DNA from: Epilithonimonas xixisoli | GTDB lineage: Bacteria; Bacteroidota; Bacteroidia; Flavobacteriales; Weeksellaceae | Reading direction: 5' to 3' | Length of the DNA: 64,000 nt | Assembly (NCBI RefSeq): GCF_004365655.1 | Contig: NZ_SOEO01000003.1 | Span: forward strand, 186,001 to 250,000 | Shown: positions 3,510 to 37,663 of the stretch, piece after piece | How positions within the stretch are numbered: the first letter of the stretch is position 1 | Layout: each line of letters opens with the position of its first letter | The notes under the pieces: generated by a model | Seen by the model: the letters and a program-made list of their open reading frames with translations, nothing else | What the model was told of the DNA's origin: nothing | The model's database searches: none | Made by a program: the position numbers and the translations under genes

Positions 3510-3548
3510 AATAAAAAAGCCTTGCCAAAAAATCTTGACAAGGCTTGA
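3510..3548 (-). terminator. Intrinsic terminator after the BtuG-like gene
   Basis: On the minus strand an AAGCCTTG stem and its complement CAAGGCTT surround a short loop and are followed by a T-rich run. It stands 20 bases after the stop of the BtuG-like gene. The stem shares the CCTTG...CAAGG core with hairpins at 12094 and 24347. Confidence 0.75.
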
Positions 3549-3567: not shown

Positions 3568-4599
3568 TTAGTTTTTATATAAACCACCAGCAATGATGCC
3601 TGCTGTAAATGATTTTTGAAGTGCGCCACTCAATGAGTAAACGGAAACTTTTGAAGCTTCTTGATAATCCTTGGCATCGGAAATGAAAATTTTGCCATTT
3701 AAAATTTCCAATGCATAGATGGTAGAGAAATCTGCAAAAGGTGCAATCGTGAATGCTGGAGCCGGAGTTGCTGGGCTTGAAACTGTAGTCACGTATACAT
3801 TGCCTTTGGAATTAAAAACAACTTGATTATTTTCAACGCTCAAGTTTTCTCCGTTTGCGATGCCTGCATATTTGGTTTCTTTTGCGATATTGCCTGCCGC
3901 ATTGATTTGATAAAGATAAGTGTCTGTTCCGTCTTGCGTTAGCGTGTAAACAAAATTGTCAGAAGCAACTGTTTTGCTGATTTGTCCGTGTGGAAGCGTG
4001 ATGGTTTTTTCTACCTCATTTGTATTATTGATGACAGAAATAGTGTTGCCAAATCCATAAGACGCGTGCTGAACGAAAACTTTGCTTCCAGCCGAAACGA
4101 TTCTTTCCACCGTATCTGTGAACGGAACCTTTTTTATAAAACTGTTGTTTGCAGCATTATAGATTGCAACATATTGCTCTCCCAAATAAGTGCTGTTGGT
4201 TACATAAAAGTTGTTGTTTGCGAAAGTGACGTAACGTGGTTGCTTCACATTGTCTGTGATAGTCGCTGTCTTCGTAAATCTGAAACGGTTTACCACTTCA
4301 ATTTTATTAGAATTGTTAACGATAATGTAAGCCTGGTCTCCTGAGAATCCAATATTGTTCACAACATCACCTAACGCTGTGTTGTTTACGGTTTTGTAGA
4401 TGTCATTCTCGATGGTCGAAATATCAGATGGGATAAAAGAAACGCTTCCACTAGGCGTTCCAAAGTTCCCTTCATTGGTTACAAGAATTCCACTATACGA
4501 TTTTTCCTGATTGTCCAAATCAAAATCATCGTCGTTACAAGATGCTACAAACAAAAGCGTGGATGCAAAAACTGCGGTTAAAAATTTGTTGAATTTCAT
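3568..4599 (-). CDS. BtuG-like surface beta-propeller lipoprotein (YncE/DUF5074 type)
   Basis: 343 residues. The N-terminus is a lipoprotein signal with cysteine at about 21 (FVASCNDDDFD); the acidic residues right after it fit the Bacteroidetes lipoprotein export signal for surface display. The rest is built of repeated beta-strand blades with motifs such as VTNEGNFGTPSGSVS, YVTFANNNFYVTN and ILNGKIFISDA, as in seven-bladed YncE-like propellers. It is encoded directly downstream of the riboswitch-controlled BtuB receptor. In Bacteroides the lipoprotein partner of BtuB, BtuG, is such a propeller and binds B12 tightly before handing it to BtuB, so this role is inferred from fold and context. 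The upstream tandem repeat duplicates its translation start region. Confidence 0.75.
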   Translation of the reverse strand: MKFNKFLTAVFASTLLFVASCNDDDFDLDNQEKSYSGILVTNEGNFGTPSGSVSFIPSDISTIENDIYKTVNNTALGDVVNNIGFSGDQAYIIVNNSNKIEVVNRFRFTKTATITDNVKQPRYVTFANNNFYVTNSTYLGEQYVAIYNAANNSFIKKVPFTDTVERIVSAGSKVFVQHASYGFGNTISVINNTNEVEKTITLPHGQISKTVASDNFVYTLTQDGTDTYLYQINAAGNIAKETKYAGIANGENLSVENNQVVFNSKGNVYVTTVSSPATPAPAFTIAPFADFSTIYALEILNGKIFISDAKDYQEASKVSVYSLSGALQKSFTAGIIAGGLYKN

Positions 4600-4907
4600 A
4601 ATATTTTTATTTATTGTTTTTTATTTGAATTATGTTTATCGCTGATGCGAGTTCATAATATTTTTATTTATTGTTTTTTATTTGAATTATGTTTATCGCT
4701 GATGCGAGTTCATAATATTTTTATTTATTGTTTTTTATTTGAATTATGTTTATCGCTGATGCGAGTTCATAATATTTTTATTTATTGTTTTTTATTTGAA
4801 TTATGTTTATCGCTGATGCGAGTTCATAATATTTTTATTTATTGTTTTTTATTTGAATTATGTTTATCGCTGATGCGAGTTCATAATATATTTATTTATT
4901 GTTTTTT
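4595..4907. repeat. 57-bp tandem repeat, five full copies plus one partial
   Basis: Five virtually identical 57-base units (starting at 4595, 4652, 4709, 4766 and 4823) and a 28-base sixth copy that carries a small substitution next to the btuB stop. The repeat fills the whole gap between btuB and the BtuG-like gene. On the minus strand each unit contains the sequence AATAAAAATATTATGAA, which is the start region of the BtuG-like gene. In the upstream copies that ATG opens a six-residue reading frame, MNSHQR followed by TAA. No spacers lie between units, so it is not a CRISPR array. Confidence 0.95.
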
Positions 4908-4910
4908 GCT

Positions 4911-6722
4911 CTAAAAGTTTAGTTTAAGATTAACAGCATAATTTCTCTTCGGCATAAAGTAGTAATTCACCGTTTCATAAATCTGATTAGCAATATTATT
5001 CACTTTAAAACCAACTTGAATATTTTTGATTGGATTAATATTAATTCCAGCATTCAAAACTAAGAAATCTTTCAGAAAGTTGCTTTCGGTATTATTTGTA
5101 AATCGCTTGCTGTTGTACAAAGCTTGGAAAAATAATCCGACGATTTTGTATTGATAATTGGTGTTGAAATTAATCTGATGAATCGGAACATAACTTAGCT
5201 GATTCTTCGTTTCTTGGTCTATGGCTTTCGTGTAAGAATAGCTGATTTGAGAATTTAATTTTTGATTTGTCCAGTTTTTATTGAAGGACAATTCCGTTTC
5301 CAAACCATAAAAATCCACTTTATCCACATTGATGGGCGACCAAATCGCGGGAGTCACCGGAACCCATTGGATCATATCTTTCATTTTTATATAATAAGGC
5401 GTGATTCCCAATTTGAAATTTTGATAACTTAAATAATGCGACATCTCCGCCTGATAAGACGTTTCCGCTTTCAAATCAGGATTCCCACCAGGCGTCCAAA
5501 ACAAGTCATTGAAAGTTGGAGCTTTGAAATTTCTGGAAATATTGATGGAAGTCTGATACCAATCATTTACCTTGTACTTTCCGCTAGCTGAGAACAAAAA
5601 AGGACTTTCATAGCCTTCTACAAAATCATATTTTGCACCAAGTTCCCAATAGAATTTCGCAAGTTGTTCATTTCTGTAAAGCAAAGAAAGATTGACTTGA
5701 TTTCGTTTCGGATTCTGGATTCCCGATTGATAACCTTCGCCTTGATTGTATTGATATTCTGAAATTAAATTGAATGAAGATTTGTTTGAAACAAAATAAT
5801 CGAAGTCATTCCGAACGATATATTGTTTCCCGATTCCACCATTGGATTTTGCTTTATTAATGTCGCCAAAATATTGAAAATTGTCTTCCAGATAAACCAA
5901 TTTCAAATCATTTTTTATTTTATTTGAATGTGATTTCCAGCCTGCCAAACTCCTGAAAGTTTGAACTAAATATTTAGTTTTGGTTTGATTTTCATCAAAA
6001 ATAGGGTAGTGCTGATCGCTGTCGTAATGTTGAGTTTGCCAATAGAATTCGTTGTTTTCATTAATCTTATAAGCCAATCCAAGATTGAATCCCGTATTTT
6101 GATATTCACCATTTCTATTAATAAATTTCTTCTCCGCAACTTCATAATCATTATCACTTTTCGAATGATTTGCAGAAAAACTGAAACTCAATTTTTCGTT
6201 GCTGAATTTGGTTTTAATGAAAGAGTTGAGCGTTCCAAAAGAACCAAATTCCGAAAACAAACTTCCGTGAAAACCTTTATCAAAATCCAAAGTATTATTC
6301 AGGTGAACCGAACCTCCAATCGCACCACTTCCATAAATCACACTTCCGCCACCAAATTTGATTCCGACGTTTTCATAACTCAGAAGATTCAAATTATTGA
6401 TGTCACCTTGACCTAAAAAAATCGAATTCACATTAATGCCATTCCAAACAAAAGCCGTTCTCTGCGCACCAGTTCCGCGGAAAGATGGCGAAGAAGTTGC
6501 GCCTCTACCATTTTCTTTGATGTAAATATTAGATTGAAATCTCAGAAGGTCCGAAAGTGATGTCGAATTTTCTAAAATCTTCTCAGAATTGATCCGAGAT
6601 ATTTTCGCCGTTTTCCCTACTTTATTGAATTGATTATCAATAAAAACCGTATCTATCAAAGATTCCTGAGCGGAAAATTGATGCAAAATTACCAAAGAAA
6701 GAAGTGTAAAAAGTCGTTTCAT
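4911..6722 (-). CDS. btuB: TonB-dependent vitamin B12 receptor
   Basis: About 603 residues with a signal peptide ending near FSAQ. The N-terminal plug contains ISRINSEKILENSTSLSDLLRF-like and SPSFRGTGAQRTAFVWNGI segments; the remainder is rich in alternating aromatic/polar beta-strands of a 22-stranded outer-membrane barrel and ends in a hydrophobic residue (LKLNF). It should import cobalamin across the outer membrane with TonB energy. The specificity is supported by the cobalamin riboswitch just upstream and a BtuG-like lipoprotein downstream. ATG at 6722 (MKRLFTLL) is chosen because the signal peptide starts there and a GGAGG-like sequence precedes it. No CarboxypepD_reg domain is present. 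Confidence 0.88.
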   Translation of the reverse strand: MKRLFTLLSLVILHQFSAQESLIDTVFIDNQFNKVGKTAKISRINSEKILENSTSLSDLLRFQSNIYIKENGRGATSSPSFRGTGAQRTAFVWNGINVNSIFLGQGDINNLNLLSYENVGIKFGGGSVIYGSGAIGGSVHLNNTLDFDKGFHGSLFSEFGSFGTLNSFIKTKFSNEKLSFSFSANHSKSDNDYEVAEKKFINRNGEYQNTGFNLGLAYKINENNEFYWQTQHYDSDQHYPIFDENQTKTKYLVQTFRSLAGWKSHSNKIKNDLKLVYLEDNFQYFGDINKAKSNGGIGKQYIVRNDFDYFVSNKSSFNLISEYQYNQGEGYQSGIQNPKRNQVNLSLLYRNEQLAKFYWELGAKYDFVEGYESPFLFSASGKYKVNDWYQTSINISRNFKAPTFNDLFWTPGGNPDLKAETSYQAEMSHYLSYQNFKLGITPYYIKMKDMIQWVPVTPAIWSPINVDKVDFYGLETELSFNKNWTNQKLNSQISYSYTKAIDQETKNQLSYVPIHQINFNTNYQYKIVGLFFQALYNSKRFTNNTESNFLKDFLVLNAGININPIKNIQVGFKVNNIANQIYETVNYYFMPKRNYAVNLKLNF

Positions 6723-6761
6723 TACAATCTGCCTTTCCTCCGAAAGCATTTAGTTTTAATT

Positions 6762-6935
6762 TTCTCTGGCAGGTCTCCTGACTTTCGCTGATTTTGCGCC
6801 TTCTCACGCGCCTATGGCGGGCAATGGCAAAGATTACAAAATCTCTTTTTTTGCGATTTACAGTTGCGGGGACAGTTGAAGAATTACGCTCCATTCCCAT
6901 TTAATCCCGAATCTTCGGGAACCAAATTCTCGGCA
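6762..6935 (-). promoter_or_regulatory. Cobalamin riboswitch
   Basis: Read on the minus strand, this leader contains the ordered hallmarks of the AdoCbl/cobalamin riboswitch: a TTAAATGGGAA block, the strongly conserved CTGTCCCCGCAACTGTA core (around 6860-6880), a variable arm, and the terminal AGTCAGGAGACCTGCC block near 6766-6784. It ends about 40 bases before btuB. With B12 bound it should repress btuB and, through it, the BtuG-like gene. Boundaries are approximate because the outer helix was judged by eye. Confidence 0.93.
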
Positions 6936-6971
6936 AATATAATGAAGTTCAAGCAACAATATCAAGATTCA

Positions 6972-11914: not shown

Positions 11915-12052
11915 AGGAGCAAGAAGTTTGGCTATTCTTTTCATCATTCCAACCCGCTTTCCACTATATCTTTTTTGCTTTCAGAACGTTTTGTCATCCA
12001 AAGAAAATTTCCCAAAAAAGCAAAAAAGGATGCCGTTGCAATCGGGGCTATG
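11915..12052 (+). repeat. Dispersed AGGAGC...GGGCTATG element, copy 1 (long form)
   Basis: It starts AGGAGC and ends GATGCCGTTGCAATCGGGGC-TATG, with CCGCTTTCCACTATATC and two facing TTTTTTGCTTT/AAAAAGCAAAAAA blocks between. The outer AGC...GCT and the inner TTTTTTGC...GCAAAAAA can pair, so the element is a long imperfect stem-loop. It carries about 30 extra bases after AGGAGC compared with the copies at 13869, 37504 and 51540. It lies in the gene-free stretch 11844-12377 after porX. Confidence 0.8.
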
Positions 12053-12093
12053 TTGAGGTTTTTCATTTCTTTTCACGATTTTATTCAATGCCC

Positions 12094-13857: not shown

Positions 13858-13868
13858 ACGACTCGAAT

Positions 13869-13950
13869 CATAGCCCTGATTGCAACGGCATCCTTTTGTG
13901 ATGAGGAACGAAGAGCAAAAGATATAGTGGAAAGCAGGTTCCCGGCTCCT
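13869..13950 (-). repeat. Dispersed AGGAGC...GGGCTATG element, copy 2
   Basis: On the minus strand it begins AGGAGCCGGGAACCTGCTTT, passes through CCACTATATCTTTTGCTC and ends AGGATGCCGTTGCAATCAGG-GCTATG, 82 bases. It is the short form of the element at 11915 in the opposite orientation, and it starts just 12 bases after the TRIC-type gene stop. Confidence 0.85.
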
Positions 13951-37503: not shown

Positions 37504-37593
37504 AGGAGCCGGGAACCTGCTGTCCATTGCAATTCCTCGCGCCAGGCTTTGTCCATCGCTTGCTGTGGGATTTCCATTACCATCAGGGCTAGG
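37504..37593 (+). repeat. Dispersed AGGAGC element, copy 3
   Basis: AGGAGCCGGGAACCTGCTGTC at the start (trimmed), then CCATTGCAATTCCTCGCGCC, and CATCAGGGCTAGG at the end, 90 bases. Very close to copy 4 at 51540. It sits in the gap between ribB and tRNA-Cys. Confidence 0.85.
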
Positions 37594-37663
37594 AGACGTT
37601 TGGCCTATCAATCAACATTTTACAAAGGCTAAAAAAAAATTTTGAAATAAAGGGCCATTAAAA

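Follow-up and report, generated by a model that had tools for sequence, protein, structure and literature searches.

What becomes of a gene whose translation start region has been copied several times in tandem into the space just upstream of it? The question is raised by a putative vitamin B12 uptake operon of Epilithonimonas xixisoli. It lies in the window, i.e. the whole 64-kb stretch of DNA analysed here (G000:C3:186001-250000, genome of 3.39 Mb). The operon runs on the minus strand from a cobalamin riboswitch through a btuB-like gene, a repeat-filled spacer and a BtuG-like gene to a terminator-like site, with the following parts:

begins at 6941, minus strand: promoter-like TATATTTG with a TTG upstream, from the TAnnTTTG scan
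6751..6941, minus strand: cobalamin riboswitch RF00174, operon leader (cmscan 88.8 bits, E 1.3e-20)
4911..6749, minus strand: btuB-like TonB-dependent receptor gene (ORF as listed; Pfam plug and barrel)
4600..4910, minus strand: btuB-btuG spacer of 311 nt, holding the 57-bp array (4595-4907)
3568..4599, minus strand: BtuG-like lipoprotein gene (DUF5074 domain and profile match)
3517..3546, minus strand: intrinsic-terminator-like site downstream of btuG (13-pair stem and T-tract)

The promoter-like sequence, found with the promoter consensus TAnnTTTG, is a doubtful candidate overlapping the first bases of the riboswitch aptamer match. The terminator scan of the region returned two sites (3546-3517 and 3605-3588), with 1.9 expected by chance. 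The best NCBIfam match of the btuB-like product was TonB-B12 at 119.5 bits, under the cut-off of 599.7, and the true start of the gene may, judging from its sequence, lie nine codons further in, at MKRLFTLLSL. A profile of the window's lipoprotein and 10 relatives matched solved BtuG chains, the best being 8bmx (E 2.5e-27), given as BtuG2 with cyanocobalamin in PMC10404256. The riboswitch was also present at seven of the eight relatives' loci searched, the contig of the eighth ending inside btuB. Cobalamin riboswitch, TonB receptor and BtuG-family lipoprotein, the parts expected of a BtuBG uptake locus, are all found here. Elsewhere in the 64-kb window, Flavo-1 RNA was matched three times, at 11946-12053 (minus strand), 13868-13945 (plus strand) and 37509-37594 (minus strand).

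The array was reported by Tandem Repeats Finder at 4595-4907 with a period of 57, 5.5 copies, 99% matches and a score of 619, the highest among the five rows obtained for the window. The btuB stop is located at 4913-4911 and the btuG ATG at 4599, with a gap of 311 nt (4910-4600) in which only 3 nt (4910-4908) remain uncovered. Both the duplication of the btuG-like start region by a 57-bp tandem repeat and the filling of the gap, as described in a sequence-only reading of this DNA, were thus borne out. On the sense strand, the btuB stop is followed by 26 nt, by ATGAACTCGCATCAGCGATAAACATAATTCAAAT plus AAAAAACAATAAATAAAAATATT repeated five times, and by the btuG ATG. Each unit is composed of a 31-nt hairpin and a 26-nt A-rich copy of the btuG start region, and btuG's own start region forms the last half-unit of the array. 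The six-codon frame that the same reading had assigned to each upstream unit, ATGAACTCGCATCAGCGATAA (MNSHQR and a stop), occurs exactly five times, with minus-strand ATGs at 4884, 4827, 4770, 4713 and 4656. These ATGs are 57 nt apart and all in frame with btuG, with 36 nt between the stop of each mini-ORF and the ATG that follows. The start string AATAAAAATATTATGAA, said to recur in every upstream unit, was found at four of the five mini-starts and, as its fifth occurrence, at the real btuG start; in the btuB-proximal copy it is replaced by AATAAATATATTATGAA, with T for A at one base before the ATG. Between -26 and +5, these four mini-starts have exactly the sequence of the btuG start. Copies 2-5 do not differ from one another, and their base at the changed place is also that of btuG's own start region, which is what multiplication of the unit on the btuG side would produce. 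The hairpins of the five copies were scored with R1, a covariance model built from four units (those of the window, G016, Epilithonimonas sp. JDS, i.e. G014, and PS02293), copy 1 being among its sequences:

4846..4891, minus strand: hairpin of copy 1 (btuB-proximal), mini-ATG 4884, R1 73.5 bits
4789..4834, minus strand: hairpin of copy 2, mini-ATG 4827, R1 69.1 bits
4732..4777, minus strand: hairpin of copy 3, mini-ATG 4770, R1 69.1 bits
4675..4720, minus strand: hairpin of copy 4, mini-ATG 4713, R1 69.1 bits
4618..4663, minus strand: hairpin of copy 5, mini-ATG 4656, R1 69.1 bits

Such an array is not a chance occurrence. No second array with a unit >30 bp and at least 95% matches was detected in the 864 kb of the genome scanned, which comprised the window and 40 stretches of 20 kb (about one quarter of the genome; units up to 500 bp, score at least 60). 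In its near-identical units arranged head to tail, the array is of the minisatellite type. A literature search covering titles and opening lines of abstracts of open-licence papers returned no description of it. A promoter inside the unit was rejected, no TAnnTTTG box being present in the array on either strand, and an 89-aa plus-strand ORF (4645-4914) was dismissed as a gene, being no more than an antisense frame kept open by the 57-nt length of the repeat (57 = 19 x 3). The terminator scan found no antisense terminator (a hairpin followed by a T-rich stretch) on the plus strand, where the unit folded no better than shuffles (z -0.96).

The scanned stretches also contained other repeats. Large arrays with a 77-bp period, each repeat having about 47 bp conserved and a variable part, were located at L164:18085-L165:3450 and L166:19408-L167:537, corresponding to ~278-283 kb and 319-321 kb of G000:C1; we take them to be CRISPR-like. 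A 285-bp array (89%) and a nested cluster with periods of 21, 42, 63 and 206 (L186:5243-5931, near 105 kb of G000:C2) were also noted.

The unit further contains a hairpin, which the sequence-only reading had omitted and which changes the meaning of the observation. It has 10 pairs, with outer arms ATTATG/CATAAT and inner arms TCGC/GCGA. A two-unit stretch folded with a z of -3.71 and none of 200 shuffles folded as well; the folding energy of -7.2 kcal/mol for one unit and -14.4 for two beats shuffles but is weak. In the alignment of the four units, standard pairs occupied 39 of the 40 pair cells, one outer pair being broken in G016, and two pairs were altered on both sides, the outer one in JDS and the inner one in PS02293 and JDS. 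Control structures slid along the alignment were 25-52.5% paired. Among 500 column shuffles, 25 equalled the paired percentage, 107 the two doubly changed pairs and 368 the pair-type count. Since only four sequences were available, this covariation is suggestive rather than strong. The btuG start region flanks the hairpin on both sides in G016, JDS, PS02293 and the window. The palindromic form of the unit is that of REP/REPIN elements, the many intergenic copies in the genome that characterize them not being found. As in intercistronic hairpins, the structure has no U-tract, lies between cistrons and is kept in relatives, here in four sequences, with most relatives having none.

The mini-frame is not conserved among the carriers. 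The short ORF encodes MNSHQR in the window, MNPAICGKHYSNKNNK in JDS and MNPHFAVTIIQLKNNK in PS02293, and there is no ATG in G016; in JDS and PS02293 it has 16 codons and ends 7 nt before the btuG ATG. Neither the mini-peptide nor the mini-AUG is as well kept as the hairpin.

In Bacteroidota, translation is initiated independently of Shine-Dalgarno pairing and stray AUGs are avoided in the vicinity of starts, and in Flavobacterium johnsoniae A at -3 and -6, low structure at the start and few stray AUGs are favoured, as outlined in PMC6847099. Such avoidance of extra AUGs suggests that they matter (PMC6847099), and in a phage case cited in PMC12548453 ribosomes take the nearer of two starts. With the first mini-AUG 26 nt after the btuB stop and the shared -26 to +5 context, the five mini-AUGs could act as decoys, as had been proposed, capturing 30S subunits or ribosomes terminating on btuB and lowering btuG output with copy number. 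The predicted structure speaks against it. In ensemble folding with four settings, the probability of being unpaired from -3 to +3 was 0.06-0.15 for the window's mini-AUGs versus 0.56-0.65 for the btuG AUG, and opening the region from -20 to +20 in the five-copy sequence required about 8.4 kcal/mol at the mini-starts versus 3.9 at btuG. The same start sequence is therefore predicted to be closed five times and open once. The PS02293 mini-AUG behaved like those of the window (0.06-0.11 unpaired). In JDS, the mini-AUG was 0.52-0.60 open with pairs of unlimited range and 0.92 when folded without the btuB sequence, a closed state (0.07-0.08) being obtained only when pairing was restricted to 60 nt. 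The corresponding site of G016, which has no ATG, was 0.31-0.41 open, and its CATAAT 3' arm is predicted to be able to pair instead with btuG's own start. Mini-AUGs predicted to be paired in a hairpin that is kept with compensatory changes, together with a frame that differs in JDS and PS02293 and lacks its ATG in G016, make decoy starts unlikely.

A related suggestion, that the number of copies tunes expression through exposure of the start, gained no support from folding, as the openness of the btuG AUG stayed at 0.59-0.63 for 0 to 8 copies. Among relatives without a unit, the btuG AUG was predicted to be more open than the window's in G011 (0.79-0.88) and not more open in G013 (0.51-0.69).

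The mini-ORFs might also serve as a relay, passing ribosomes that terminate on btuB to btuG by reinitiation and preserving the coupling of the two genes despite the insert. The five in-frame mini-frames spaced by 57 nt would suit this role, as would the short distance between the 16-codon mini-ORFs of JDS and PS02293 and the btuG ATG, and MIRUs are thought to keep a downstream gene coupled via their own ORF (PMC12548453). However, the window's mini-ORFs end at 36 nt from the next ATG, their AUGs are predicted to be closed and G016 offers no ATG at all, which renders the relay very improbable. A leader attenuator was not indicated either: no terminator-like site was found in the btuB-btuG gap and the short ORF was not conserved (six codons in the window, 16 in each of two relatives and no ATG in another).

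The comparison of unit number in related genomes, which had been put forward as a check, gave 0, 1 or 5 copies; the number differs between species, as in minisatellites, and the fixed number that had been named as evidence against a regulatory role was not observed at this level. Five copies are present in the window's genome (G000), one each in G016, JDS and PS02293, and none in G013 and G011. The gap of G016 is 72 nt long and that of PS02293 73 nt, with BtuG proteins 86% and 83% identical, respectively, to that of the window; the JDS gap is also 73 nt long, with a BtuG of 44-47% identity. Each of these three gaps reads start region, hairpin, start region. The gap of G013 has 23 nt and no unit, with BtuG 96% identical to the window's; this genome is a MAG of 73% completeness, and its zero copies could reflect assembly loss. 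The gap of G011 has 11 nt and no unit. A protein search identified btuG in 17 of the 23 genomes of the genus. In 14 of these the gap measured 10-23 nt and had no unit, two had a single unit and the window's genome had five.

The same picture emerged from named loci, of which the best 80 of 227 were taken, some of them from the same species as the 23 genus genomes. With the gap counted to the first in-frame ATG after an upstream ORF of at least 600 nt, 78 of the 80 were measurable (L131 and L134 were not), and at 74 of these the gap was up to 25 nt, with a median of 13. The four longer gaps belonged to PS02293, JDS, L092 (296 nt) and L108 (42 nt). The long spacers of L092 and L108 were discarded as homologues of the unit, having no R1 match. 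By eye, the L092 gap (L092:3329-3624, 296 nt, a Flavobacteriaceae MAG) shows palindromes with CCTACGG/CCGTAGG cores, which are REP-like and unrelated to the window's unit. In 1.06 Mb of loci from 96 relatives, two arrays with at least 3 copies, a unit of at least 25 bp and at least 85% matches were found, neither of them in the btuB-btuG gap. An array of 116 bp x 5.1 (91%) was noted in Chryseobacterium endalhagicum (L081:2227-2806), about 2.2-2.8 kb upstream of btuG.

Searched against 320 family genomes, to which PS02293, from another collection, does not belong, R1 gave matches in 28 at E up to 0.5 under stricter filters. Scores of at least 69 bits were reached in only three of the 320, G000 (five places), G014 and G016, always in the btuB-btuG gap, and the next-best score was 32.1 bits; as the model was built from the carriers, their high scores are by construction and the finding is the absence of others. 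An exact-core search confined zero-mismatch matches to the btuB-btuG locus of three of the 23 genus genomes, and matches with 1-2 mismatches elsewhere in the genus occurred at about the rate of a reversed-pattern control. A mobile or dispersed element was rejected, with no second strong locus in the genome, the 23 genus genomes or the 320 family genomes. The unit is a locus-specific element and not a dispersed repeat.

The presence of 0, 1 and 5 copies among close relatives could also indicate a contingency locus, in which frequent copy-number changes within a strain would make cells differ in their btuG/btuB ratio. Near-perfect copies favour frequent changes in length, and repeat number sets expression in the pil1 locus of Streptococcus gallolyticus (PMC3894217). 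However, expansion was seen once, no examined relative having more than one copy, and folding predicts a btuG start unaffected by copy number; such a role appears quite doubtful.

A tree based on ndh and trmD united PS02293, G016, G014, G019, G000, G013 and G011 in a single clade (100/100), within which G013 and G011 formed the sister group of G000. G019 has no unit and is little informative, because its BtuB, 55% identical, is foreign to the clade. On this tree, no more is needed than a single ancestral unit, its loss in the line leading to G013 and G011, and an increase to five in that of the window. The btuB tree is in conflict with it, joining G011 with G016 and G013 with G000, and would need two losses; the conflict indicates that the lineages have exchanged DNA. 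Between G013 and the window, the first 360 nt of btuG (4240-4599) contain 2 differences and the last 707 nt of btuB 64 (Fisher P 5e-10), which places a recombination edge in or beside the spacer. The copy-number difference would accordingly be recent or have arrived with that exchange.

The BtuG gene itself also looks cassette-swapped when the window (3568-4599) is compared with L140 (G011) and L141 (G014). Its product is only 44% identical, and the btuB, ndh and trmD products of these loci are 84-99% identical to the window's. Identity within btuG falls after ~120 nt, with the signal peptide kept, and recovers near the gene end.

An error of assembly was considered as well, since short reads resolve an array of this kind (313 bp, units of 57 bp) poorly and the true copy number might not be five or the array might be misassembled. 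However, copy 1 has a base change of its own, the array joins btuB and btuG cleanly and three other genomes carry homologous single units, so that an artefact is extremely unlikely.

A further possibility is that the array, and even the hairpin, is neutral debris of slippage on duplicated A-rich sequence. Most of the examined relatives have no unit, the unit number is unstable and the test for covariation, with its four sequences, is not a strong one; on the other side, a single unit has been retained in species whose BtuB differs by 5-16% from the window's, and has done so with two pairs changed on both sides. Neutrality is somewhat unlikely on this balance, and it shares the amplification step with the explanation preferred here, the odds of the preferred and the alternative readings not being exclusive.

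We prefer, with a probability of about 0.6, to explain the array by a cassette of hairpin plus start region that was inherited as a single copy and recently amplified in tandem; its hairpins would keep the false starts closed and set btuG apart from btuB. The single copy would have been present between btuB and btuG in the ancestor of one Epilithonimonas species group. Slipped replication or unequal recombination would then have added copies, giving five in the window, or removed them, leaving none in two close relatives, both being possible because the hairpin is flanked on either side by a near-identical copy of the start region. In vitro, archaeal polymerases slip at a hairpin accompanied by short direct repeats (PMC4134008). 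In the mRNA, each hairpin would pair the start codon brought by the duplication, and the real btuG start would thereby remain the sole open one. If btuB and btuG are translationally coupled at all, the increase of the btuB-btuG distance from about 13 to 311 nt would weaken this coupling, and the array would place hairpins between the btuB and btuG segments of the mRNA. Most probably, spacing is the main change caused by the insert. According to a reporter study cited in PMC12548453, coupling declines gradually from +50 to +350 nt, and in malEFG and other E. coli operons the upstream segments are protected by intercistronic hairpins that have no U-tract (PMC5927463). Loss of coupling or protection of a segment may operate at the btuB-btuG spacer, and any effect on the putative B12 uptake is likely to be modest. 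A more elaborate role, in which the unit count would set the BtuG:BtuB ratio under one riboswitch via spacing, competing pairing or segment decay, each duplicate AUG being locked in its hairpin, seems rather improbable; competing pairing would be provided by the CATAAT arm, which can pair with the upstream ATTATG or with that of the real btuG start.

The plausible idea of decoy starts is thus probably wrong and was corrected by the hairpin analysis. The locus offers a natural series of 0, 1 and 5 copies of a start region, predicted to be shut in the window, in which structure can be tested against sequence in the start choice of Bacteroidota. The same series could also show whether copy number can shift the balance between operon partners such as BtuB and BtuG.

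The closest known kinds of element are MIRU-like start-codon repeats and intercistronic hairpins. MIRUs form tandem arrays of variable number. Like the window's unit, a MIRU is a short repeat at a downstream start codon with a small ORF (PMC12548453). As described there, MIRUs are dispersed and join the next gene by a -4 nt overlap (PMC12548453), whereas the window's unit has one strong locus only, its hairpin is maintained through compensatory changes and its mini-ORF, at 7 nt or 36 nt from the next start, has no overlap with btuG. The protective hairpins of E. coli malE-malF, like those of the window, have no U-tract and stand between genes of a transport operon (PMC5927463). They are presented as energetically stable (PMC5927463), whereas the window's are weak and A+T-rich, pair a duplicated start codon and occur in five copies. 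The pil1 leader of S. gallolyticus, with its GCAGA repeats, resembles the window in that tandem repeats precede the gene of a surface protein and are accompanied by a short ORF and a stem-loop (PMC3894217). In pil1, changes in repeat number put a single leader peptide into another frame with respect to a terminator (PMC3894217); in the window, in contrast, the unit length of 57 is divisible by 3, every mini-ORF ends at its own stop codon and no terminator was found in the gap. The B12 uptake loci of Bacteroides likewise unite riboswitch, btuB and btuG, with the BtuG fold family recognized here by sequence profile; where PMC10404256 describes these loci, it mentions no repeat of the 57-bp type.
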